Shown here: positions 25,179-39,409 of the stretch, one piece after another
Numbering within the stretch: the first letter of the stretch is position 1
Layout: each line of letters begins with the position of its first letter
DNA from: Thermoflavifilum thermophilum
GTDB taxonomy: Bacteria > Bacteroidota > Bacteroidia > Chitinophagales > Chitinophagaceae
DNA: 64,000 nucleotides
Assembly (NCBI RefSeq): GCF_900116565.1
Contig: NZ_FPCJ01000001.1
Span: 1 to 64,000, forward strand
Direction of reading: 5' to 3'
The notes under the pieces: generated by a model
The model's database searches: none
What the model was told of the DNA's origin: nothing
Seen by the model: only the letters and a program-made list of their open reading frames with translations
Made by a program: the position numbers and the translations under genes

Positions 25179-27893
25179 TCACCATTGTGATCTTCCCCAG
25201 AAATCAATCCACCCTCTCCATTTCGAAGCCAAAGAAACACCTTCACCAGGATGATTTTTCAAACCCCATGGCCCACCATAAAAACAATATTGCATAACAG
25301 GTCCCTCAACATAACGATTCAGCATGGTGAGGTACTGTACATACAATTGCTCTTGTTGAGGATCGCGAGTTAAGGTTAAATTATTATCGGGGTAATTATC
25401 GGCCCCGGCTTCATAGCATATTAACCGGATATTTGTATTATCAAGACTATTTTTAGCCCATATCATCATCTGTTCATCCTGAGAAATTGCATTTTGTTCT
25501 TCAGTCATAGACTGACCTCCCATGTAGGGCGCCATAGCATAGGCATCTATGGTTATGCCATAGGGATTAATTTTTACATTTCGTAATGCAGCTAAATCTC
25601 CCACAACCATGTGGTTGTAATCATATCCATCCCAGTGATAAGCTACCTGACCCGAAATGACTTTTACCAGCCTGTTGCTATCGACTCCAAATACATCTTT
25701 GAATATTTTAAACACTCGTGAGGATGCATATACGTCATACTTCCTCCACGGATCACAATATGCTCCCACATCTACAGTATCCAGGCCAAGAGCTTTTGCT
25801 TGCTGATTTGCATAAACCGTTGTTGCAAATCCCCAATTCCAAACTTCATTACCCCACTCTACATAAACTTTTAAATTTGAATTTAACTGATTCTTAATCA
25901 AAGTGGCTAATTGTCTAACATAATCATCACTTGCAGCTACCGGAATATTAATCCAATAATCTGCCCCTATGCGATTGCATAAATCAATCTGCCATTCATA
26001 GGCAACCCCGTAACTGGTCGTCCCATTCCACTCAAGATTATGCGTATTGGTCGATGGATCATAATGATCCACAAAACACGGAATCAGATTGTCTTGATTG
26101 TAATGATTGGCGGTTTTCGGAATCCTCTGACTCCAATTTACCACACACGACGTATTGGTGGCATTCCAGTCCATAAAACGCAGGCATTTTATTTTCGCCT
26201 GTTGTAGCTCACTAATTAATGTCGGATTCCATGGATTGGTCGTTGTAGCCCAATCCACACCCGATTGAAAGAAATCCTGCCATCCTTCCCACCCTATGTT
26301 CCAAAAGTTTGCACCCGGTGTCATAACTGCTGTTGAAGGTGGCTGGCTTCCACTATTTGAGAACAATTGTGATTGGGGAATGATTTGTGTGCTTTGTCCG
26401 GGGTAGCTCCATTGTAATTTTACAACAGCACCGCCCTGATTTTCATAGTATTCCAGTACTATATCATATTTCTGGCCAGCAGTAAGACTTATTGGATTCG
26501 AAGTATTTGTGGTAGGTGGATGATCTGTCCAATTATCAATAAGTAAGGAACTGTTTACCCATAAGCGAACACCATCATCAGACACTGTACTGAAGGTATA
26601 GCTACCCGTTACTGGAGCCAAGACTTGTCCCGTCCATCGAACAGAAAACAAATCCGTATTCTGACCTTGAGCATATGAACCATTTCCCCAGTTAAAATTA
26701 ATCGTTGAATCCACTCTTGTTATAGCAGGCGATCCAGAAAGTGTTTTGTTATTGAAATAGCTACCTTTTAGCCCATCTCCAGAATTGGAACCAATGGTTT
26801 GTGATGAAAGAGTAAGGGTACCAAATCCTTGCGGATATCTCCAGTTATCACCATTTCCGGCCCACATAAGCTGGCTATCTCTGCTCCCTCCATTGTCGTC
26901 ATCATCGTTGCCCACATCAAATCCAATTTGCAGCCCGGCTGAAGGTGTAATACCCAGATTACTCCAGGGGATCGCCAACTCTACCGCATATCCACCATTG
27001 ATAGCGGACCAAGCATGTTGCACACCATTCGTATTATTATGTTGTTCCCAAAGTGTAGAGGATTGATAGGCCTGTATAAACTGTCGGTCATAACTATCAT
27101 AGCTCATCCCTCCATTGTGATTTCCGTCAATATAAATTTCTACAGCATCATCATCCCACGGATTTGGAGAATCATGATACAGACTTCCATCAAGTACTTT
27201 TGCTGCAACATACAGGTAATTGTTATCCCAGCATACTGCATAAGAAACCGTATTGTTGGAGCCACCTATGATGGATTTATTTACAGCATAATTAAACTGC
27301 CATACGGATTCATTCGGGTTGCCATCGATTACAATCGTTGATAAAGTTTTATTCGCACTTGCCGAATTATTGGTAACCGTCAAAACCAGCTCAGGTTTAT
27401 TTGTGTTATTTTGCCGAGAGTAAAAACTTGTCCATGTATCTAAATTTGTTGTAATACCAAAAGAAACAATCTTATTGCCCGACATTTTTGATTGTACGTA
27501 TGAGGTAACATCAATCTCAATATATCCTTGACTGCCCGAAACCGATTTTGAAGTAATCAATGTACCGATGTCGGGTAAAGTAGTCCCTTCACTCCAGTTA
27601 TCTGTAGTTGTGGTGTTGACATTCAAAGTATATGGATTACCCCCATACACCTGATAAATCCGTAACTTTGCCTGTACAACATTTGCTGAAATATTGCTTA
27701 TATCAAACTTCAAAAACATGTGACACCACTTGCTGGCATTCAATGTACTATTTGTTCCACTGCTGTTATCACTTTGGCTATCAGTATCAGCAGTAGGATT
27801 TAAAGTTTGGCCATGTGCATAAAACGAGCCTATAATCATATACAGGACTAACATGTACAAGACATAAAGGCGATGGTGAACATACCGTTTCAT
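25179..27893 (-). CDS. Multidomain secreted carbohydrate-active protein (DNRLRE/CBM96-, CBM9- and PA14-like modules plus C-terminal clan-A-like domain)
   Basis: 904 residues with a signal peptide ending near residue 29 (AHGQ). Module 1 (about 30-175) has KFDISNISANVVQAKLRIYQ and WSEGTTLP, the DNRLRE/CBM96-type fold. Module 2 (about 185-375) has YAVCWDNNYLYVAAKVLDG, PWDDDAVEIYIDG and GGYAVELAIPW, like CBM9. Module 3 (about 383-520) has GLKGSYFNNKTLSG, VRWTGQVLAPVTGSYTF and YDIVLEYYENQGGAVVKLQW, a PA14 domain. The rest (about 530-904) looks like a clan-A barrel with VYVEWGNEVWNWG as candidate acid/base and LICYEAGADN as candidate nucleophile, but I cannot assign a GH family. First gene after susD, and probably the glycan-anchoring enzyme. 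Confidence 0.75.
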   Translation of the reverse strand: MKRYVHHRLYVLYMLVLYMIIGSFYAHGQTLNPTADTDSQSDNSSGTNSTLNASKWCHMFLKFDISNISANVVQAKLRIYQVYGGNPYTLNVNTTTTDNWSEGTTLPDIGTLITSKSVSGSQGYIEIDVTSYVQSKMSGNKIVSFGITTNLDTWTSFYSRQNNTNKPELVLTVTNNSASANKTLSTIVIDGNPNESVWQFNYAVNKSIIGGSNNTVSYAVCWDNNYLYVAAKVLDGSLYHDSPNPWDDDAVEIYIDGNHNGGMSYDSYDRQFIQAYQSSTLWEQHNNTNGVQHAWSAINGGYAVELAIPWSNLGITPSAGLQIGFDVGNDDDDNGGSRDSQLMWAGNGDNWRYPQGFGTLTLSSQTIGSNSGDGLKGSYFNNKTLSGSPAITRVDSTINFNWGNGSYAQGQNTDLFSVRWTGQVLAPVTGSYTFSTVSDDGVRLWVNSSLLIDNWTDHPPTTNTSNPISLTAGQKYDIVLEYYENQGGAVVKLQWSYPGQSTQIIPQSQLFSNSGSQPPSTAVMTPGANFWNIGWEGWQDFFQSGVDWATTTNPWNPTLISELQQAKIKCLRFMDWNATNTSCVVNWSQRIPKTANHYNQDNLIPCFVDHYDPSTNTHNLEWNGTTSYGVAYEWQIDLCNRIGADYWINIPVAASDDYVRQLATLIKNQLNSNLKVYVEWGNEVWNWGFATTVYANQQAKALGLDTVDVGAYCDPWRKYDVYASSRVFKIFKDVFGVDSNRLVKVISGQVAYHWDGYDYNHMVVGDLAALRNVKINPYGITIDAYAMAPYMGGQSMTEEQNAISQDEQMMIWAKNSLDNTNIRLICYEAGADNYPDNNLTLTRDPQQEQLYVQYLTMLNRYVEGPVMQYCFYGGPWGLKNHPGEGVSLASKWRGWIDFWGRSQW

Positions 27894-28015: not shown

Positions 28016-29539
28016 TTAATAACCTGGATTTTGCACAATATTGGGATTCACATCCACTTCACTGGAGGGAATGGGGAAATTTAAATGTTTAGGTGACTGA
28101 AACGACATTGCATCGGGTATAGCTGAACTGAAATAAGCATTGTTTAAAGTAATTATCCCTCCGAGAGCCCATCTCCGCAGGTCCCACCAGCGTTGCCCTT
28201 CACCAGCTAACTCTATTAATCTCTCGTTCATGATCCATTGCATGATCTGATTTTTGTCGGTTATCAAATCATTATAATTCGCTGGCTGCCCGGTATTGCT
28301 CATGTTTCGTGCACGGGTGCGCACTTCATTAATCAAGTCAATTGCATCTTTTGTGGAACCACCCGATTGCAAGATGGCTTCTGCCTTAAGCAAAAGCACA
28401 TCAGCATAGCGTAAAATACGCGGATTATTAGCAGATCCCACTCCACTCTGGGTTAACTTATCCGGATTGACATACTTCAGGATAGCCCGATGATTGAATA
28501 CATCTCCTTTTGTGGTGTCAATGGTTAGGGGCAAGCGAGGATCTCCCGGATCAAAAGCATATAAAAGCTTGTTCGTAGCAATCCACGGCGCATTTCCAAA
28601 TTGTGCAAAACTATTGCTATAAAAACCCCAGTATGCTGACATAGAGCCAACGGGATTATCAAAGTCATTGGGTAACCATACATTATCAAATCCATAGGGC
28701 TGACTGGCCTGAAACTCAAACAATGATTCGGCATTATTTTCTGCATTGGGTGAGAAATTATCTGCGAAATTGGGAACCAAATGGGTGACAGATTCATCAA
28801 TTTTATCAAATGCCTGAATAGCCGCTTGAAAATCTGCTGTGCTTTTATTCACCGTTGCCCGAAATACCAAACACTTACCCAACAACCCGTATGCCGCATT
28901 GGCAGTAGCCCTCCCACGATTTGCTGCATCCCATTGCTTGGGAAGTAAAGCTGCTGCTTCTCCAAGATCTTGAATTGCCTGATCTAATAATTCTGTTCCT
29001 TTGGAACTGGGTGGATAAATCTGATCAGTAGTGGTTACCCGCACTGTATCGAGTGGCGCTGTGCCAAATACATTCCAGAGATAATAATACATCAATGCAC
29101 GCAGAAAGAGTGCTTCTCCATAATTGTATTTTTTCAGATTCTCGTCTTGATAAATGCCGGGTTTTACTTCACGAATTTTTTCCAGCACCACATTAGCCCG
29201 TGCAATGAGCTGATAGCAAGCGGTATAAAAATAATTCAAAGTACCATCACTGGGCTGAATGCTACCAAAAATTTCATAAGCATTGCTTTGTGATGTGGTG
29301 ATATCATCTCCCGGAAGATACCAGACTGGCGTGGCAAAATTCAAGGCATTGTAATTATACAAATCACTCAGCTTAGCATACACACCATAAACTGCTTTCT
29401 GAAACTCATCCTGAGTAGAAAAATAATCCTGTTCCGTTGCCCCAAAAGGTTCTACGTTTAGCTTACTTTCATTGCAACTCCATGATGTGGCCACCACCAA
29501 TAGCGAAGTTGTTATGATAATCCATTGCTTTGATTTCAT
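28016..29539 (-). CDS. susD: SusD/RagB-family glycan-binding lipoprotein
   Basis: 507 residues; lipobox Cys22 (TSWSC). SusD hallmarks: DYFSTQDEFQKAVYGVYAKL near the start, an N-terminal TPR-like region (ARANVVLEKI, YGEALFLRALMYYYLWNVFG), LKAEAILQSGG, AIDLINEVRTRA and the C-terminal WIMNERLIELAGEGQRWWDLRRW. SusD proteins form the lid of the SusC channel and capture oligosaccharides at the cell surface. It follows SusC by 30 bp as in all SusCD pairs. The ligand is not predictable from sequence. Confidence 0.95.
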   Translation of the reverse strand: MKSKQWIIITTSLLVVATSWSCNESKLNVEPFGATEQDYFSTQDEFQKAVYGVYAKLSDLYNYNALNFATPVWYLPGDDITTSQSNAYEIFGSIQPSDGTLNYFYTACYQLIARANVVLEKIREVKPGIYQDENLKKYNYGEALFLRALMYYYLWNVFGTAPLDTVRVTTTDQIYPPSSKGTELLDQAIQDLGEAAALLPKQWDAANRGRATANAAYGLLGKCLVFRATVNKSTADFQAAIQAFDKIDESVTHLVPNFADNFSPNAENNAESLFEFQASQPYGFDNVWLPNDFDNPVGSMSAYWGFYSNSFAQFGNAPWIATNKLLYAFDPGDPRLPLTIDTTKGDVFNHRAILKYVNPDKLTQSGVGSANNPRILRYADVLLLKAEAILQSGGSTKDAIDLINEVRTRARNMSNTGQPANYNDLITDKNQIMQWIMNERLIELAGEGQRWWDLRRWALGGIITLNNAYFSSAIPDAMSFQSPKHLNFPIPSSEVDVNPNIVQNPGY

Positions 29540-29569: not shown

Positions 29570-32500
29570 TTAGAATCGGGCATTTACCCCAATCAAAAAC
29601 TGTCTTGCCGGCGGATTCCGATCATTTTCAGGATCATAGCCCGTCCATTTCGTAAACGTATATAGGTTTACAGTGCTCAAATAGATCCGCAGGCTTTCGA
29701 TGAATCCTAGTTTTTGCAACAGATGACGATTGAACGTATAACCAAGTTGTATGTTTTTCACACGCATGAAGCTTGCATTTTCAATCCATCTGTCAGAAAA
29801 TCTTCCCGATCCTGCAGGGTCATTGATGACTGCACGAGGCATGGTCGTAGATGGGTGATCTGGAGTCCATCTGTTCATCACGGTTGCCCATTGATTCGCT
29901 CCTTTGCTATCAGACATGGCTTCTCCGGCAGCACGCACTTCGTTATATTTCTTTACGCCCCCTACTCCCTGGAAAAAGGCACTGAAATCAAATCCTTTAA
30001 AAGCCATACCAATATTAAATCCGTAGTAAAAGCTGGGAATAGTGGAACCCAAATATGTCCGATCATTATCGTTAATCAAGCTATCCGGACCAGGCTTCTC
30101 AAACTTACCAGGTGGAGGATTGCTGTTAATATCCTGAAAATACATATCGCCGGGCTGATAATGATATCCTGCACTTGTATCGGTAAGGCTTTGCCCAATG
30201 GTGAGATCGGCATGCGATGCCCGCCATTGCTGAATTTGCTGATAATTCTGGAAAATTCCTGCTACCTTGTATCCATAGATGTATCCAATGGGATAGCCTT
30301 CTTGTACTCGCCCACCAGCCGCAAAAATGGGTTCATGATTATACAGAGAAACAACTCTGTTTTTATTTGTGGTGAGATTACCACCTGCATTGAAGGTTAC
30401 ATTCCCAACCTGTTGCTGATAATTGATTGTGAGCTCAATACCTTTGTTACTCACTTTTGCAATATTCAAATCAGTGGGTGCCTGTATGCCTGTGTTGGGT
30501 GGGAGGGATACACTTTGGATAATTCCTTTTGTAAGACGATCATAATAGTCGAAGGTGACATTGAACATGCCCTTGAATAATACAGCATCCAATCCAATAT
30601 TAGTAGTTTGTACTCTTTCCCAGCTCAAGCTGAAGTTGGGAAAATTGGGCAATGCTGCCCCCTGTACCTGCTGGCCAATAGCATCCCCATTTCCGGAACC
30701 CAAAGCATAATCAGGCGTCGTGCTGACTTGCGAAAGATAGGCAAAACCCTGAGTGGTTTCCTTATTTCCCAACTGTCCCCATCCACCTCTTAACTTAAGA
30801 TCATTTAACCAGTCAGGCACTTTCCAGAAATGCTCTTGTGTAACACGCCAGGCCAATGCAAAGGAGGGGAACCAACCCCAGCGATGACCAGGTGCAAATA
30901 CTGAAGAACCATCGCGTCGCAAAGTAGCATCTACATAATATTTCTCTGCAAACTTATAACTGATTCTGCCCATATAGCCCAGGAGCTGTTGTTGCTGGAG
31001 TGGACCTGCCGATCCTGATACCCAGGGGAAGATATTGGCCACAGATCTTTTGTTGGGATCAGAGAACTGAACCTGACCAGTGCTGTTATCTGTCCAGCTC
31101 CATTTTTGCCATTGATTCATCCCGTCAAACAACACGTCAAAATAATGCTGGCCTATTTGCTTTGTATATTCAGCCGTAAATTCCTGGATGAGATTAATAT
31201 TTCTGTTTTGGCGCTGCCCATAACTCCCTTTTGATGTTCCATCATTATTTGAATAAGGATTCCCAGGAGTTTGTGAGAAAATGTAACTGTCGAATGCATT
31301 CCACCTTGCCACCAAATTAAAATAATAGTCTACACTGACAGTACCTTTGAATTTCAATCCTTCGATGGGTTGAACCTGGAAATAAGCACTTCCAATTTGC
31401 CGGAACAAAGTGTAATCAGCGGAATTAGTAGCTTCTAAACCCAGTGGATTGGAACGGGTAGCCGGTCCCCACAGCAATTTCACCCCTCCATTGTATCCCA
31501 GAGAATCAAAGCCATCATCAATAACATACAGCGGAACCGGAGCCAGGTACACCGGCCTGTTACCTGAGATGGGACTTTGTAAATCAGGATTAGGCTTAAA
31601 TTTCACATCCGCAACGGGTGCATACCCATATCGGTTGCTGGGATCATACAAAGGTTGCCATGGGGGAGCTGTAGATTCGTTCCATAAATCACCATTGGTA
31701 TTGTTTAAGGCACGCTCAAAACCAATTCGATCTGTAATACCCGCTTCGAATATCTTTGAAATCTTGCTGTTTACTGTCGTGGAAAAAGTATAGCGTTCAA
31801 GGTTGGCAGCTTTCAATGTTCCTTCCGTTCGGCTGTAGCCGGCCGAAAAAAAGTAGGTTGTTGAAGAATTGCCTCCCGAAATACTAAGGTTATAATTCTG
31901 CAAATCTGCATGATGGTTAAGAATTGCATCTTGCCAATCGTATGTACCATTGTTTCCCAGGTAATCAGGACTATTGGGATCAAAAACACTGGGCAGAGGA
32001 GGTGCAAATGGGTTGTTTTTATACGCTTCCGTATATAGATTTACATACTGCTGTGTATTAAGTAGTTTGAGGGTTTTGGCTGCATCCTGAAAACCCTTGT
32101 AAGCATTAAAGCTCACTCTGGGTGCACCAGATTCTCCATGTTTAGTGGTAATGAGAATAACTCCATTAGAAGCCCTCACGCCGTATATGGCTGCAGCCGA
32201 TGCATCTTTCAACACGGAAATAGAAGCAATATCATCCGGATCGATAAGGGTCATGATATCTATAGGACTCCTGATATCTTGAAAGCCTGCGTAGGTACTG
32301 CTGGCACCTCCCTCGATCACAGGAATACCGTCAATCACAATGAGCGGATCAGCATACCCAAAAGTGGAAACACCGCGTATGCGAATCGTAGGCCTGTCAA
32401 ATGGATTTCCGCTTGGCGTTGAAACATACACACCTGCCATTCTTCCCTGCATAGCCAATTCAGGGTTCATGGCTGTGCTTTTCTGTATATCCTTGGAATC

Positions 32501-33190
32501 AATACTTGAAATTGCACCGGTTAGGTCTTTTTTCTGACGTGAACCGTATCCAATTACAACTACCTCATTTAAATTCTGATTAGTGGGCTCTAAAGAAATA
32601 TTAATTTCAGAACGCCCATCTACCGGCACCTCCTGCGTTTGATAGCCCACAAAAGATATAACCAGGGTAGCGTTATCTGGTACTACAATTTCATAAATGC
32701 CGTTGATATCAGAAATCACACCCTGATTTCCATTTTTCACCTTAATGGTAACGCCAACCAGGGGTTGACCCGTAGCACGATCCGTAATTTTACCCTTCAC
32801 GTGGATATCTTGGAAAACAGTGTTTATGTCACCAATTACAATCAAATGATCGGGAAGCTCCTTGTAGGACAAATGATAAGGAGACAGCATTTGCCTCAAT
32901 AATTCAGTAACAGGCAAGTCATTTGCTTGCAGATTTACCTGTGCATCCTCAGGAACTTTCCTGTCGCTATACAGAAAACGATAGCTGCTATTTTTCTCAA
33001 TAATCGAGAGCGCTTTTTTTAACTTAATATTGTGCAGATCAAGCGTAATCCTTTCCTGAGAATACACGTGATGAGCATTCACCTGCAGACATGCCAGCAA
33101 CAGGAAAGTACATGTCAGTTTCATGATCAACAGTAAATTAACATCTGGAAAGCATGATGGAATTTTTTTTAGCAAAAAAATTTTTTTCAT
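29570..33190 (-). CDS. susC: SusC/RagA-family TonB-dependent transporter with STN domain
   Basis: 1206 residues, an outer-membrane beta-barrel importing oligosaccharides with SusD. Order: signal peptide ending about residue 45, STN secretin/TonB short domain (about 50-105, LDLHNIKLKKALSIIEKNSS), carboxypeptidase-like beta-sandwich (GKITDRATGQPLVGVTIKVK), then the plug with NEVVVIGYGSRQKKDLTGAI and SVLKDASAAAIYGVRASNGV. The 22-strand barrel follows, ending in LIGVNARF with a C-terminal Phe. The STN domain signals to the neighbouring FecR anti-sigma factor. ATG 33190 is kept as start; Met 23 is an alternative that would give a shorter signal peptide. Confidence 0.95.
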   Translation of the reverse strand: MKKIFLLKKIPSCFPDVNLLLIMKLTCTFLLLACLQVNAHHVYSQERITLDLHNIKLKKALSIIEKNSSYRFLYSDRKVPEDAQVNLQANDLPVTELLRQMLSPYHLSYKELPDHLIVIGDINTVFQDIHVKGKITDRATGQPLVGVTIKVKNGNQGVISDINGIYEIVVPDNATLVISFVGYQTQEVPVDGRSEINISLEPTNQNLNEVVVIGYGSRQKKDLTGAISSIDSKDIQKSTAMNPELAMQGRMAGVYVSTPSGNPFDRPTIRIRGVSTFGYADPLIVIDGIPVIEGGASSTYAGFQDIRSPIDIMTLIDPDDIASISVLKDASAAAIYGVRASNGVILITTKHGESGAPRVSFNAYKGFQDAAKTLKLLNTQQYVNLYTEAYKNNPFAPPLPSVFDPNSPDYLGNNGTYDWQDAILNHHADLQNYNLSISGGNSSTTYFFSAGYSRTEGTLKAANLERYTFSTTVNSKISKIFEAGITDRIGFERALNNTNGDLWNESTAPPWQPLYDPSNRYGYAPVADVKFKPNPDLQSPISGNRPVYLAPVPLYVIDDGFDSLGYNGGVKLLWGPATRSNPLGLEATNSADYTLFRQIGSAYFQVQPIEGLKFKGTVSVDYYFNLVARWNAFDSYIFSQTPGNPYSNNDGTSKGSYGQRQNRNINLIQEFTAEYTKQIGQHYFDVLFDGMNQWQKWSWTDNSTGQVQFSDPNKRSVANIFPWVSGSAGPLQQQQLLGYMGRISYKFAEKYYVDATLRRDGSSVFAPGHRWGWFPSFALAWRVTQEHFWKVPDWLNDLKLRGGWGQLGNKETTQGFAYLSQVSTTPDYALGSGNGDAIGQQVQGAALPNFPNFSLSWERVQTTNIGLDAVLFKGMFNVTFDYYDRLTKGIIQSVSLPPNTGIQAPTDLNIAKVSNKGIELTINYQQQVGNVTFNAGGNLTTNKNRVVSLYNHEPIFAAGGRVQEGYPIGYIYGYKVAGIFQNYQQIQQWRASHADLTIGQSLTDTSAGYHYQPGDMYFQDINSNPPPGKFEKPGPDSLINDNDRTYLGSTIPSFYYGFNIGMAFKGFDFSAFFQGVGGVKKYNEVRAAGEAMSDSKGANQWATVMNRWTPDHPSTTMPRAVINDPAGSGRFSDRWIENASFMRVKNIQLGYTFNRHLLQKLGFIESLRIYLSTVNLYTFTKWTGYDPENDRNPPARQFLIGVNARF

Positions 33191-33197
33191 AACTTTG
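33167..33197 (+). promoter_or_regulatory. Antisense promoter overlapping the susC start codon
   Basis: On the plus strand TAACTTTG (33190-33197) is a full TAnnTTTG match, with TTTT at 33167-33170 exactly 19 bp upstream in place of TTTG. It points away from susC, into the susC leader region. The first base of the box coincides with the complement of the susC ATG. Confidence 0.5.
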
Positions 33198-33202
33198 GTT
33201 TG

Positions 33203-33290
33203 AATGGTGAAATAATGCTTTTCCTCTTCATGAGGTTAGGCGTTATGAAAATTCACATGTGAGGGAGTGTGCTCGCACTCCCTTTTTTCT
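33203..33290 (+). ncRNA. Predicted antisense small RNA over the susC leader
   Basis: Between a plus-strand -7 box (33190-33197) and a plus-strand intrinsic terminator (33262-33288) lies an 85-90 nt interval with no reading frame. It contains a CCTC/GAGG mini-hairpin and a TCACATGTGA palindrome. It would be fully complementary to the 5' untranslated region of the susC mRNA. Established parallel: cis-encoded antisense RNAs such as DonS repress PULs in Bacteroides fragilis, in sigma/anti-sigma-controlled loci. Here the RNA is predicted, not observed. Confidence 0.5.
33262..33288 (+). terminator. Plus-strand intrinsic terminator in the susC-fecR gap
   Basis: AGGGAGTG pairs with CACTCCCT around a 6-nt loop (33262-33283), followed by a six-T run on the plus strand (33283-33288). 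Both flanking protein genes are on the minus strand, so no annotated gene uses it. That is the main argument for the antisense RNA. Confidence 0.7.
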
Positions 33291-33347
33291 TTCTATGTAC
33301 ATCTGTTCATGGCTATAACTTTTTATATGTGAACCAATATTTTATGC

Positions 33348-34457
33348 TTAATAAATAATCACAGAACTATCCTGATCCTGAATCTGAAATCGGAATTTTT
33401 CCGCCATTTGTAAAGCTTTCAAGGCCTGTTCCAAGGTTTCATGTTCGAAAATACCCGTGAAATGATATTGCTTAACGCTGTCATCCTTGAATTGAAAATG
33501 ATACCCATACCAGCGTTCGAATCGCCTGGCCAAATCAGTAAAATTTTCGTCTCTAAACACGAGCTTGCCGTCTATCCAGGCAGTTTCCATTAACGTGCTA
33601 TCCTGGGGTGAGAAATAATGAATTTCTGTTACCCACAGTTTACTGGAAGTCTTTTCAGCAGGCATGGGTGGCGTTGGCCCAACTGCATGTTCTTGTTTTT
33701 GTACAGTTACCCGATCGTTCATTACCACGAGTTTTTCTTTTGGCTTCAAAATAATCCGATCTTCCGGCCGATCTTTTAAAGTAACCAGAATAGCTCCGTT
33801 TATCAGTGATGTTTCGTACAAAGGATCATCCGGGTAACATTTCACATTAAACTCTGTGCCCAACACAGTGATATTCATTTTTGCAGTATGGATGATAAAA
33901 GTTCGGTCCGGATCATGTTTTACCTTAAAGTACGCCTCGCCCGACAACCATACTTCGCGCGTTTTACCAGTAAACTGCAATGGGTAATAAATTCGCGTGT
34001 TTCCATTAAGCCATACTTCAGTACTGTCTGGAAGAATAAGTTTTGATTTGATCCCGGGCTGATCATAGGTTAACTCCCAGTTTCGTGGAGGTTGATTACC
34101 TATGTGGTGATGGCTATTCCAGATTTGATATGTGCCAATGGCTAAGCTGATTATGATTAAAATAACGGCTGCCCATCTGATCCATACAATTGGAAACCGA
34201 TGAATGATTCCCCGTGTGCTGGAATGCTTGTGTAGAATTTTTTTTGTCTTATTCAGTTTTTGCTGTAAACGTGTATAAGCCTGATCTAAGTCCACATTTC
34301 TGATATTTTCTGCACGCCAGTATTTGTCCAATAACTCTATTTCATGTTGAATCAATGGATGCCTGCGAATCCAATCGTTTAACTCCTGCAATTCTTCAGG
34401 AGTTGCAGACTTAGTTAAATACCTGGATATCAATTCGTTCAACCTGGATTCATCCAC
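33348..34457 (-). CDS. FecR-family anti-sigma factor
   Basis: 369 residues. N-terminal cytoplasmic sigma-binding region (MDESRLNELISRYLTKSATPEELQELNDW), one membrane segment at about residues 85-105 (WAAVILIIISLAIGTYQIW), then the periplasmic FecR domain with SKLILPDSTEVWLNGNTRIYYP and REVWLSGEAYFKVKHDPDRTFIIHT. The C-terminal DUF4974-type region carries GKLVFRDENFTDLARRFERWYGYHF. It senses the SusC STN domain across the periplasm and releases the ECF sigma factor. It lies 98 bp downstream of that sigma gene and 157 bp upstream of susC. Confidence 0.93.
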   Translation of the reverse strand: MDESRLNELISRYLTKSATPEELQELNDWIRRHPLIQHEIELLDKYWRAENIRNVDLDQAYTRLQQKLNKTKKILHKHSSTRGIIHRFPIVWIRWAAVILIIISLAIGTYQIWNSHHHIGNQPPRNWELTYDQPGIKSKLILPDSTEVWLNGNTRIYYPLQFTGKTREVWLSGEAYFKVKHDPDRTFIIHTAKMNITVLGTEFNVKCYPDDPLYETSLINGAILVTLKDRPEDRIILKPKEKLVVMNDRVTVQKQEHAVGPTPPMPAEKTSSKLWVTEIHYFSPQDSTLMETAWIDGKLVFRDENFTDLARRFERWYGYHFQFKDDSVKQYHFTGIFEHETLEQALKALQMAEKFRFQIQDQDSSVIIY

Positions 34458-34555: not shown

Positions 34556-35134
34556 TTATTTCCGGATATTATATTCAGTGATCTGTTCGCGAAGGATTAC
34601 ACGCAATTTTTGAATAGCTCGCTGAAGGTGGGTTTCGACTGTACGTACAGAGATTTGCAGAATTTCTGCTACTTCCTTATATGTCATTTTTTCTTCTCTA
34701 ATGAGCTTAAATACCAACCGACTCTGTAAGGGAAGCTGATTCATTGCATTCTCTAATGTAGTGTGTAATTGCTTCAGTTCAATTTCTTTCTGTGGATCAG
34801 ACCGATCAGTTAAGTCGGCAGCTTGCCCGGAATCGTTCACAACATATGAAGATGAACGGGAAGAATGGCGGAAATAATTGAGGCATCGGTTTCTGACAGA
34901 TATAAATAAATAAGTATCAGGTGATTGTATTTTCTTCAACTTTTCCCGATGTAACCATACATTTACAAATACATCCAACACAATTTCTTCAGCTTCTTCC
35001 CGAATGGAGATGTACGAAATGGCAAATCTTAGTAGCCTATCGTAAAAATAATCAAAAATCATGCGATAGGCTTTCTCTCCTTCATCATGGCACATTCGTT
35101 GCCACAACGATAAGATATGTACCGGGCAAGCCAT
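34556..35134 (-). CDS. ECF RNA polymerase sigma factor of the PUL
   Basis: 192 residues. Region 2 is seen as FDYFYDRLLRFAISYISIREEAEEIVLDVFVNVW and SPDTYLFISVRNRCLNYFR. Region 4 is seen as LPLQSRLVFKLIREEKMTYKEVAEILQISVRTVETHLQRAIQKL. This is a Bacteroidota RpoE-type ECF sigma paired with FecR; when released it would transcribe the downstream susCD operon. First gene of the PUL; no TAnnTTTG box is evident directly upstream. Confidence 0.93.
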   Translation of the reverse strand: MACPVHILSLWQRMCHDEGEKAYRMIFDYFYDRLLRFAISYISIREEAEEIVLDVFVNVWLHREKLKKIQSPDTYLFISVRNRCLNYFRHSSRSSSYVVNDSGQAADLTDRSDPQKEIELKQLHTTLENAMNQLPLQSRLVFKLIREEKMTYKEVAEILQISVRTVETHLQRAIQKLRVILREQITEYNIRK

Positions 35135-35323: not shown

Positions 35324-36757
35324 TCACAATTCCTTGATAGCCTGTATCAGCTGTTGCAAGGTTTGTTTGGCGTCACCAAACAACATAGCCGTTTTGGGAC
35401 GATAAAACAACATATTTTCAATACCCGCATAACCGGGTTTCATGCTGCGCTTGTTGACAATGATGGTGCCTGCTTTTTCCACTTCCAGCACAGGCATCCC
35501 ATAAATAGGACTTCCGGGATCTTCTTTGGAAGCGGGATTCACCACATCATTGGCGCCCAATACCAGTACGGCATCTGTGGTTTCAAATTCAGTATTGGCT
35601 TGTTCCATTTCCAACAATTTTTCGTACGGCACATCGGCTTCGGCAAGCAATACATTCATGTGCCCCGGCATGCGCCCGGCTACCGGATGAATCGCATATT
35701 TTACTTCCACGCCTCTTTCTTCCAACAGTTTTTCCAGTTCATGACAGGTGTGTTGTGCTTGTGCAACGGCCAGTCCATAACCGGGTACGATCATCACTTT
35801 CTTGGCATAGGCCAGCACAACTGCTGCATCGCTTACTGTAATTTCTTTGTATGACTGTTGTGCTTGTGCCAACTGTCCTGCTTTTGTACCACCAAACGAT
35901 CCCAGGAGTACATTTTTCAATGAACGATTCATGGCTTTGCACATCAGCACGGTGAGAATAGCACCGGCCGAACCTACCAGAATACCACCGGTGAGCATCA
36001 CCTGATTATCATATAAAAAACCACCACAAGCTGCTGCAATACCCGTACAAGAGTTCAGCACAGAAATCACCACCGGCATATCAGCCCCTCCAATGGGCAT
36101 GACAAACAAAATTCCGTACATCAGTGCCAGCAACATGATGAGCCCGAAAACCCAGCCATTGAAAAATGCTTCCTGCGTAAGTAACCCCACAGCAAGCAAC
36201 AACGTAATTACCAGCACCGAAATATTGAGCACCTGCTGACCCTGAAAACGCCATACCCCAATTTTTCCCGCCAGCTTGCCCAACGCAATCATGCTTCCAG
36301 AAAATGAAATGCTTCCAATCACAAGCCCAGCCAGGATAATGAACACGTGCAGCAACAAATTGTTCCCTGCAATCAAAACTGCAGCCACCAACAGCAAAGG
36401 ATCTGCATGGGTGAGATGTTCAAACTCATTGACCGAAATCAAAGCCGCACACAGTCCGCCCATACCGTTGAACAAACTCACCATCTCCGGCATGGCCGTC
36501 ATTTTCACTTTGCGCGCCAGTACGGTTCCAATAATACCACCTATAATCAATCCGGAAAAAATCCATCCGTAATTATGCAGACGTGTTCCATCATCGGTTT
36601 GATAAAGAAAAATAGTACCCACGATAGCAATGCCCATCCCGGCAGCCGCTACCAGATTGCCCCGGCGAGCTGTACGCGGATGAGAAAGCATTTTCAGGCC
36701 GACAATAAATGTAACGGAACCAATCAGATAACACAGGGAAAGTACAGCAAGACCCAT
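35324..36757 (-). CDS. pntB: NAD(P) transhydrogenase subunit beta
   Basis: 477 residues. The membrane half has about nine hydrophobic segments (LCYLIGSVTFIVGLKML, AALISVNEFEH, ISFSGSMIALGKLAG). The C-terminal NADP(H)-binding domain III carries VMIVPGYGLAVAQAQH, YAIHPVAGRMPGHMNVLLAEA and VLVLGANDVVNPASK. Couples proton re-entry to hydride transfer from NADH to NADP+, supplying NADPH. It ends the three-gene pnt operon (pntA1, pntA2, pntB), the split-alpha layout also known from Rhodospirillum. Confidence 0.95.
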   Translation of the reverse strand: MGLAVLSLCYLIGSVTFIVGLKMLSHPRTARRGNLVAAAGMGIAIVGTIFLYQTDDGTRLHNYGWIFSGLIIGGIIGTVLARKVKMTAMPEMVSLFNGMGGLCAALISVNEFEHLTHADPLLLVAAVLIAGNNLLLHVFIILAGLVIGSISFSGSMIALGKLAGKIGVWRFQGQQVLNISVLVITLLLAVGLLTQEAFFNGWVFGLIMLLALMYGILFVMPIGGADMPVVISVLNSCTGIAAACGGFLYDNQVMLTGGILVGSAGAILTVLMCKAMNRSLKNVLLGSFGGTKAGQLAQAQQSYKEITVSDAAVVLAYAKKVMIVPGYGLAVAQAQHTCHELEKLLEERGVEVKYAIHPVAGRMPGHMNVLLAEADVPYEKLLEMEQANTEFETTDAVLVLGANDVVNPASKEDPGSPIYGMPVLEVEKAGTIIVNKRSMKPGYAGIENMLFYRPKTAMLFGDAKQTLQQLIQAIKEL

Positions 36758-36787
36758 AACTTGTTTGGCATTTAATAAAAAAATGAT

Positions 36788-37138
36788 TTACCCATTTCGG
36801 TTTTCCTGAAGATCCGGTTTTTTCTTGCGGCTGCGGAACATATCCAGCATGCGATCCGTAACCACAAATCCACCTACCACATTCAAAGTACCCACAATCA
36901 CGGCCAGAAAACCAATGATGAGAGCAAAATAATTATCCGGACTGGCCTGGCCCATCACAATGATAGCACCAATGATAACCACCCCATGAATCGCATTGGC
37001 TCCACTCATCAGCGGAGTATGCAATACAGATGGTACGCGTGAAATGACCTCCACTCCAAGAAATATGGAGAGCACTACGATATAGGCCATTTCCAGATGA
37101 TCGTGCAAAAATTGCAAAAGACTTCCCATGATCTGCAT
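36788..37138 (-). CDS. pntA2: NAD(P) transhydrogenase subunit alpha part 2
   Basis: 116 residues, three to four membrane segments: YIVVLSIFLGVEVISRVPSVLHTPLMSGANAIHGVVIIGAIIVMG (family block) and YFALIIGFLAVIVGTLNVVGGFVVTDRML. This is the membrane part of the alpha subunit, separate from the NAD-binding part in split systems. It lies 30 bp upstream of pntB and 21 bp downstream of pntA1. The C-terminus is charged (RSRKKKPDLQENRNG). Confidence 0.93.
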   Translation of the reverse strand: MQIMGSLLQFLHDHLEMAYIVVLSIFLGVEVISRVPSVLHTPLMSGANAIHGVVIIGAIIVMGQASPDNYFALIIGFLAVIVGTLNVVGGFVVTDRMLDMFRSRKKKPDLQENRNG

Positions 37139-37159
37139 CTTTATAACTGAACTGAAAGT

Positions 37160-38293
37160 TTACGCCTGCTGTACGGTTTGCAAGATGCGTGCATCGCGGA
37201 TTTTACCTTCGTACACTACACATGCCGCCGATACAATATCATCTTCAAAATTGAATTGCAACCTTCCATCCTTGCCGATCAGCAATTGCAGAAAATGCAG
37301 CAGGTTGCGACCATACAATTTACTGGCATCAGCAGGAACGGTAGAAGGCAGGTTGGAATTGCCGATGATTGTGACTCCATGATGCACAATGGTTTCGCCG
37401 TTGCGTGTCAATTCCGTATTACCACCTGTTGAAGCTGCCAGGTCCACGATTACGGATCCCGCACGCATGCTTTCCACCATCTCACGGGTTACCAGCAAGG
37501 GAGCCCGTTTGCCCGGTATTTGAGCCGTAGTAATCACGATATCGGCTTTGGCAATGGTGGCTGCTATTTTTTCTTTCTGCCGTCGCTGGTAATCGGCTGA
37601 TTGTTCAACGGCATAACCCCCAGCAGCCGAGGGATCCGCGGCTCCTTCCACCTCAATGAATTTGGCTCCCAGGCTCATAACCTCTTCCTTTACGGCCGGG
37701 CGGGTATCAAACGCTTCTACCACAGCGCCCAGCCTGCGCGCTGTGGCAATGGCCTGCAATCCAGCCACACCGGCGCCCAACACCAGTACCTTCGCCGGCT
37801 GAATACTACCAGCTGCCGTCATCAGCATGGGAAAATAATGCGGATAATGTGCTGCGGCCAGAATGACAGCCTTGTAACCGGCTATATTGGCCTGCGAACT
37901 CAATACATCCATGCTCTGAGCCCGGGTGGTGCGTGGAATGGCATCCAGGCTGCATACTGTCATGCCTCTGCTGGCCATTTTTTGGATTTCAGCCGCATGA
38001 TACAAAGGCTGGTACATGCCAACCCAGATGGTTTTCTCCCGGGCCTGTGCAAGGAGTTCATCGCTTTCAGGGAAATGCATCCTGCATAACATATCTGCAT
38101 GCAGCCACACTTCTTTCTGATCAGCCACATGCGCCCCCACCGCCTTGTAATCGGCATCCGAAGCATAGGCTCTTTCTCCTGCACCCGATTCAATCCAGAC
38201 TTCCTGCTTCAGCTGAACTAATTGCTTAACCACATCAGGCAAACAGGATACCCGATTTTCTCCTTCCGGCTCTTTGCAAATTCCAATGACCAT
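37160..38293 (-). CDS. pntA1: NAD(P) transhydrogenase subunit alpha part 1
   Basis: 377 residues of the soluble NAD(H)-binding domain I, homologous to alanine dehydrogenase. Seen: ICKEPEGENRVSCLPDVV at the start, EVWIESGAGERAYASDADY, the dinucleotide-binding loop VLVLGAGVAGLQAIATARRLGAVV ending in an acidic FDTRPAVKEEVMSLG, and VIVDLAASTGGNTELT. It opens the pnt operon. The NAD-binding part and membrane part are separate genes, as in split transhydrogenases. Confidence 0.95.
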   Translation of the reverse strand: MVIGICKEPEGENRVSCLPDVVKQLVQLKQEVWIESGAGERAYASDADYKAVGAHVADQKEVWLHADMLCRMHFPESDELLAQAREKTIWVGMYQPLYHAAEIQKMASRGMTVCSLDAIPRTTRAQSMDVLSSQANIAGYKAVILAAAHYPHYFPMLMTAAGSIQPAKVLVLGAGVAGLQAIATARRLGAVVEAFDTRPAVKEEVMSLGAKFIEVEGAADPSAAGGYAVEQSADYQRRQKEKIAATIAKADIVITTAQIPGKRAPLLVTREMVESMRAGSVIVDLAASTGGNTELTRNGETIVHHGVTIIGNSNLPSTVPADASKLYGRNLLHFLQLLIGKDGRLQFNFEDDIVSAACVVYEGKIRDARILQTVQQA

Positions 38294-38478: not shown

Positions 38479-38838
38479 TTAATGCCTGAGGATGGTAAAA
38501 TGCACCAGATAAAACGCGAAGAGCAAAATGGCAAGAATTACGATAATAATGAGAACCAGATAGAGTTGTGTCCGATACGATTTCAGAAAAAACCTGTGCT
38601 TTTCCCGAAGTTGTTTTTTGAAATGATGATGTACGTGTTGTAGTGCCAATGAAAACCCGTCGGGATCCTGGATATTGGCCAGTCCATCCACAGCCTCACT
38701 GCAGAATGAACAGCTGTTTAAATGCGCTTCAACCCGATATCGTTCTTCAGCAGAAAGTTTGCCACGCACATAATCTATCATTTGTGCCGGACTCAGGCAG
38801 TGCGTGGAATCGAATATATGTACAACTGTCTCACTCAT
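38479..38838 (-). CDS. Zinc-finger anti-sigma factor, membrane anchored
   Basis: 119 residues. An N-terminal zinc-binding anti-sigma domain shows His-x3-Cys-x2-Cys in RVEAHLNSCSFCSEAV near residues 37-46. A single membrane segment follows near 90-112 (LYLVLIIIVILAILLFAFYLV), leaving almost no periplasmic part. Its first codons overlap the end of the sigma gene by 8 bp, so the two are translationally coupled. It would hold that sigma factor at the membrane; the signal is unknown. Confidence 0.82.
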   Translation of the reverse strand: MSETVVHIFDSTHCLSPAQMIDYVRGKLSAEERYRVEAHLNSCSFCSEAVDGLANIQDPDGFSLALQHVHHHFKKQLREKHRFFLKSYRTQLYLVLIIIVILAILLFAFYLVHFTILRH

Positions 38839-39409
38839 TGTTCAGCTGTTTTTGCTTTTTCTCCAGCATGATGCGCAAGTTACGTTTACCATTTTGAATA
38901 TAGCTTTTAACCTGCATCAAGGTATAACCTGTTATCTCCGCAATTTCCTGATAGGAATGTTTTTCCAGATAAAACAAGCGGATACAGGTTTGCTGTGGCT
39001 CGTTCAGCTGCTGAAGGGCTTCTTCCAATTGATTCAGCTGTTCGTTTTTTAGCAGTAACTCCTCATCGTCTTCCGGAGAAACTACCCACTGCGTGTCGTT
39101 TTCATCCTGTTTCAACCAATCGGCAGATGATTTTCCACGAAGCTGCATCAAACAATAGTTTTTGGTAACCTGATATAACCATCCTTTAAAATATTGAATT
39201 TGTGTATGATCGGCTTCCTGCATCACCTTCATAAAAATCTGCTGGGCAGCGTCACGGGCATCTTCCATATTTTTTAAATATTTTATACAAACACCTAATA
39301 CCAGATGCATGTATCGTTCGAATAAAATCCCCATCCACTCCGGATTGTGATCGTTCCGATAGCGTTGCAGAATTTCTTCATCGGGAATTGTGTCAGTACG
39401 GATTGCCAT
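38831..39409 (-). CDS. ECF RNA polymerase sigma factor (second)
   Basis: 192 residues. Region 2: LFERYMHLVLGVCIKYLKNMEDARDAAQQIFMKVM and YFKGWLYQVTKNYCLMQLR. Region 4: LNEPQQTCIRLFYLEKHSYQEIAEITGYTLMQVKSYIQNGKRNL. Unlike the PUL sigma it is partnered with a small zinc-finger anti-sigma (8-bp overlap), so it belongs to a different stress- or envelope-type control circuit. Its regulon is unknown. Confidence 0.9.
   Translation of the reverse strand: MAIRTDTIPDEEILQRYRNDHNPEWMGILFERYMHLVLGVCIKYLKNMEDARDAAQQIFMKVMQEADHTQIQYFKGWLYQVTKNYCLMQLRGKSSADWLKQDENDTQWVVSPEDDEELLLKNEQLNQLEEALQQLNEPQQTCIRLFYLEKHSYQEIAEITGYTLMQVKSYIQNGKRNLRIMLEKKQKQLNNE

Follow-up and report, generated by a model that had tools for sequence, protein, structure and literature searches.

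The gap between the fecR and susC genes of a Thermoflavifilum thermophilum PUL encodes, with a probability that we put at about 80%, a DonS-type cis-antisense RNA. This RNA would base-pair with the susC leader and in this way, perhaps with promoter interference in addition, repress its ECF sigma/FecR-controlled PUL. The sequence elements, where they stand, how often they recur, their conservation and their association with FecR are observed; we infer the transcription of the RNA, the pairing, the repression and the mutual exclusion of sense and antisense transcription. The locus lies in a window of 64,000 nucleotides, which is the whole stretch of DNA that was analyzed.

Results

The minus strand carries, in order, the ECF sigma factor, FecR, the gap, SusC, SusD and a CBM/PA14 protein (Table 1), and the locus is a PUL of the trans-envelope signaling type. 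Both neighbors of the gap are thus on the minus strand, as an earlier note on this DNA had stated. The STN domain of the window SusC scored 26.5 bits in a profile search, slightly below the cut-off of 28.4. The susC start could alternatively lie at an in-frame ATG at 33124, but 33190 is favored because the position of the promoter box across many loci (below) supports it. Elsewhere in the window, a second ECF sigma factor and a short anti-sigma-like protein are encoded at 38479-39409, adjoined by genes resembling NAD(P) transhydrogenase subunits (35324-38293).

Table 1. Features of the susC locus and of the predicted antisense unit
Feature	Position	Strand	Details
ECF sigma factor, Bacteroidetes family	34556-35134	minus	TIGR02985, 157.7 bits, above cut-off
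fecR-type anti-sigma factor	33348-34457	minus	PF04773, PF16344
Predicted cis-antisense RNA, ~88 nt, ends inferred	33203-33290	plus	complementary to susC 5' leader
Intrinsic terminator	stem 33261-33284, then T tract to 33290	plus	GAGGGAGTGTGCTCGCACTCCCTT then TTTTCTTTCT
5' stem-loop of antisense RNA	33207-33256	plus	z -5.7 for this part alone
-7 box of predicted antisense promoter	33190-33197	plus	TAACTTTG, match to TAnnTTTG
Weak -33 element	33167-33170	plus	TTTT (end of T run), 3/4 matches to TTTG; 19 nt before -7 box
Target susC, SusC/RagA TonB-dependent transporter with N-terminal STN	29570-33190	minus	TIGR04056, 869 bits
susD, in susC operon	28016-29539	minus	PF07980, PF14322
Putative glycan-binding/processing protein	25179-27893	minus	CBM96, CBM9 and PA14 domains

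The promoter consensus used was that of the Bacteroidetes, TAnnTTTG at -7 and TTTG at -33. The plus-strand -7 box that the earlier note had placed over the susC start codon is there, the first T of TAACTTTG being the T of the start codon (CAT, 33188-33190). Among 50 loci, TTTG is mildly enriched at about the same spacing from the box as the weak -33 element of the window. A generic sigma-70 promoter scan gave nothing useful in the susC leader region, as expected for promoters of this phylum.

The strong plus-strand terminator claimed beyond the box was also found, and it tops the terminator-like sites of the 10 kb that were scanned. Its stem has 10 pairs, 5 of them G-C, and it is one-sided, with a T tract on the plus strand and none on the minus strand at 33261-33284. 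The generic scan alone returned 9 terminators with 8.9 expected, a chance level at which the region is not unusual; the significance lies in combination, position and recurrence.

The unit of roughly 88 nt proposed earlier, for which the predicted ends give 86-88 nt, is predicted to fold into two hairpins. A 93-nt unit has a folding energy of -36.1 kcal/mol versus -18.1 kcal/mol for shuffled sequences (z -6.26), and none of 200 shuffles equaled it. The part 5' of the terminator is independently structured, with a mean z of -2.8 over 74 loci. The predicted RNA lengths at 84 loci, with ends that are likewise predictions, have a median of 90 nt and a 5-95% range of 69-115 nt. An Rfam search of the element gave no family above threshold, the best matches (E 0.1-1) being at chance level.

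An orthologous susC is present in two of four same-genus genomes, with a SusC identity of 84%; the other two are without an orthologue of the window susC. Conservation at orthologous susC genes, which the earlier note had singled out as a check, was observed at both: the full -7 box (TAACTTTG/TAATTTTG), the 5' stem and the terminator are all kept. The same layout, with a different stem sequence, is found in another genus of the family at L034, a susC that follows a FecR-like gene position. DNA similarity of the whole region is confined to the genus, and the weaker matches beyond it are short and lie at unrelated genes, L034 excepted. Directly past the terminator, the stretch 33294-33316, around ATGTACATCTGTTCATGGCT, is largely kept in both orthologues and could belong to the sigma-dependent promoter of susC.

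Within the T. thermophilum genome, 24 genes score above the TIGR04056 cut-off. Six of these susC genes, namely L001, L002, L004, L006 (the window gene), L012 and L021, have an antisense terminator, which precedes the likely start by ~58-100 nt; the start of L004 was set at a later in-frame methionine, picked from the N-terminal sequence. FecR genes number exactly six in the genome, every one of them immediately preceding a susC (L001, L002, L003, L004, L006 and L021), and five of the six susC genes linked in this way carry the antisense terminator. The remaining one, L003 (G000:C2:175773-181823), combines a near-complete -7 box with a strong hairpin that is not followed by a T tract. L012 (G000:C2:144019-150018; L313:1516-7028), which lies behind a GH3-like gene, is the sole element-bearing susC of the 24 without STN or FecR. 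A search of the other susC genes of the genome, the second check suggested by the earlier note, therefore yields box, terminator or both, whole or partial, upstream of six of them. The terminator is present at six of the seven genes that are FecR-linked or L012 and at none of the other 17 (Fisher 5e-5). TAnnTTT covers the start codon in five of the seven, with the final G in L002 and L006; the boxes of L001 (TATTTTG) and L021 (TACCTTAG) are degenerate.

The background of the genome was taken from ~864 kb with 676 mechanically called genes, of which 165 have a leader that separates them from a same-strand neighbor by 80 nt or more. An antisense terminator is present in only six of the 165 leaders: susC genes of this class account for five, and the remaining gene has a sense terminator too. 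TAnnTTT falls on the first ATG of 14 of the 676 genes.

The survey was extended over the phylum with STN-type SusC N-termini as query, which gave 80 loci from many orders. One fixed terminator rule was used throughout, and 250 nt upstream of susC were scanned in this STN survey. An antisense terminator was found at 33 of 55 STN-type susC genes, where dinucleotide shuffles gave an expectation of 0.6 and the sense strand had 2. Among non-STN susC genes the count was 1 of 24 (0.1 expected), and that one was bidirectional. Two samples were then defined by FecR, both restricted to FecR-to-next-gene gaps of at least 80 nt. The first, 60 genomes drawn over the phylum, had an antisense terminator in 12 of 33 gaps (sense 2, expected 0.0), and many of its FecR genes precede gene kinds other than susC. 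The second comprised eight genomes reached via named loci (Bacteroides, two Parabacteroides, Prevotella, Proteiniphilum, Chitinophaga, Dyadobacter and Polaribacter) and had 50 of 79 (sense 2, expected 1.4), ~40% of its gaps failing the strict terminator rule; the counts of these surveys are not independent events because a few loci are shared with the STN survey and all are related by descent. The earlier note had foreseen an extension of the DonS layout to a Chitinophagaceae-like genome. The layout is present there, but its breadth was underestimated, since it is phylum-wide and not confined to one more family.

The promoter box recurs with the terminator in a fixed geometry. At 50 loci chosen by the terminator alone, TAnnTTTG is positioned precisely at the start codon, its first T within the CAT, in 24 and TAnnTTT in 37. 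The corresponding figures are 41 and 47 of the 79 gaps in the second FecR sample and 0 and 3 of the 24 non-STN susC genes; all such counts are lowered where the start, taken mechanically as the first in-frame ATG, is wrong. The start-codon pattern agrees with the -7 consensus column by column, and the final G is present in 60%.

A loop motif, TGTT..CA or its complement, was noticed at the window terminator (33261-33284) and in a first set of terminator hairpins, where it occurs in 21 of 54. In further, held-out hairpins it was found in 15 of 47, versus 5 of 112 other terminators (Fisher 9e-6). The motif occurs in either orientation and would be accessible in the antisense RNA as well as in the mRNA, making it a possible contact point between the two. 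A reading of the loops as YUNR U-turns was dropped because about half of them do not fit.

Discussion

The features described above suggest the following mode of action. The ~88-nt RNA would be made on the plus strand from a general Bacteroidetes-type promoter whose -7 box sits on the susC start codon. Its synthesis would stop at a terminator of its own, close to where the susC mRNA presumably begins. Complementarity to the susC leader would extend to within ~12 nt of the start codon, on which the promoter itself sits. In the absence of the glycan, the RNA may pair with leaky susC mRNA, and translation would be blocked or the duplex opened to RNase. Release of the ECF sigma factor would then send strong sense transcription across the antisense promoter and switch antisense synthesis off. 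Interference between the two transcriptions is expected because the sense transcript must cross that promoter. Since SusC also senses, activating FecR and the sigma factor, it is part of a positive feedback loop, to which the antisense/sense pair would add a threshold. The association with FecR would be understandable if the role of the RNA is to damp leaky synthesis of a transporter that senses its own activation.

Bacteroidota make little use of Shine-Dalgarno pairing. Pairing of the RNA with the leader would hinder initiation, as described for FopS acting in trans in B. thetaiotaomicron (PMC11697453). Not every PUL antisense RNA of B. thetaiotaomicron is anti-correlated with susC (PMC10994844), so that repression may not be the rule.

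The hairpin might instead be a sense element of the susC mRNA leader, such as an attenuator, a stabilizer or a protein-binding site, with the plus-strand promoter and terminator incidental. The mRNA also forms hairpins (z -2.8), and the terminator-loop motif in either orientation would suit such a role. We nevertheless regard a sense element as unlikely: of 79 gaps, 50 have a T tract behind the hairpin on the antisense strand and 2 on the sense strand, an antisense -7 box stands at these very loci, and the plus-strand fold is the more exceptional (z -6.3 versus -2.8, over different lengths). Somewhat less probable still is that CATAnnTTT reflects translation initiation, reading AAAnnTATG on the mRNA, so that it is no promoter and the terminator merely stops stray antisense transcription from entering the fecR and sigma genes. 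Translation in Bacteroidetes depends on A-rich leaders, and the leaders here are A-rich and G-poor. An initiation context would not account for a pattern found at the first ATG of just 14 of 676 genes and at 3 of 24 non-STN susC genes, nor for the per-column match to the -7 consensus, final G (60%) included; and a bare transcription stop has no need of a structured 5' part.

Equally, the RNA could be real and act mainly in trans on other susC mRNAs, as FopS does in B. thetaiotaomicron. Paralogues within this genome have a short T/A-rich stretch in common at their predicted 5' ends, and FopS sRNAs bind near susC start codons (PMC11697453). However, the stems differ among paralogues of one genome while complementarity in cis is perfect, and we consider a mainly trans-acting RNA improbable, to much the same degree as a sense element. 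The DonS-type cis-antisense RNA remains the preferred reading.

A wider proposal, which we make tentatively and at just short of even odds, is that ECF sigma/FecR-controlled PULs across Bacteroidota share a built-in switch. An antisense promoter box fused to the susC start codon would make sense and antisense transcription mutually exclusive and set a threshold on the SusC-FecR-sigma loop, other PUL types being mostly without it, and the terminator-loop motif (TTNNCG or complement) may start the pairing of the two RNAs. PUL antisense RNAs have so far been described mainly in gut Bacteroides and now appear as a module in lineages phylum-wide. The breadth, the tie to one type of PUL control and the fixed geometry suggest an ancient and general part of the envelope-sensor control of glycan uptake. 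They also provide a simple sequence rule with which to find many such RNAs and to test their action in easily grown species.

Comparison with Known Systems

The closest likeness is to the DonS family of Bacteroides fragilis (Cao et al. 2016, via later papers), whose members, like the predicted window RNA, are cis-antisense to a susC 5' region, oppositely oriented and in a PUL context. The window element has its own predicted promoter and terminator opposite the susC 5' region, as in the DonS type, and the DonS-like layout recognized in the earlier note holds in place, orientation and length, DonS RNAs being 78-128 nt (PMC7366714) and the RNA predicted here ~88 nt. DonS lowers its PUL in B. fragilis by a mechanism that is unexplained (PMC11697453). 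Its host belongs to a different class of the phylum, and the window RNA is a prediction from sequence.

B. thetaiotaomicron has 32 PUL-associated antisense RNAs, both correlated and anti-correlated with susC (PMC10994844). These (Ryan 2020, 2024) are alike in layout, and some are anti-correlated with susC; they came from RNA-seq, whereas the window RNA is predicted from DNA sequence. In the accessible text of that antisense literature, neither a fixed promoter-on-start-codon geometry nor a link to FecR across the phylum is described. A flavobacterial transcriptome study includes a list of antisense RNAs and goes no further than to suggest pursuing the Bacteroides example (PMC9723704).

FopS sRNAs act in trans in B. 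thetaiotaomicron and pair near susC start codons (PMC11697453). They resemble the proposed window RNA in repressing susC translation by such pairing but differ in acting on several mRNAs and in being antagonized by RbpB. In a comparison with FopS/GibS-type 5' seeds, the paralogue 5' ends share a short stretch, and perfect complementarity is found in cis. The literature after the founding 2016 DonS paper, in the sections available, mentions neither a phylum-wide class nor the box-on-start-codon geometry. The window locus would join the known DonS-type antisense RNAs, and what goes beyond the literature covered, as far as those sections extend, is the phylum-wide breadth and the fixed position of the box on the start codon.
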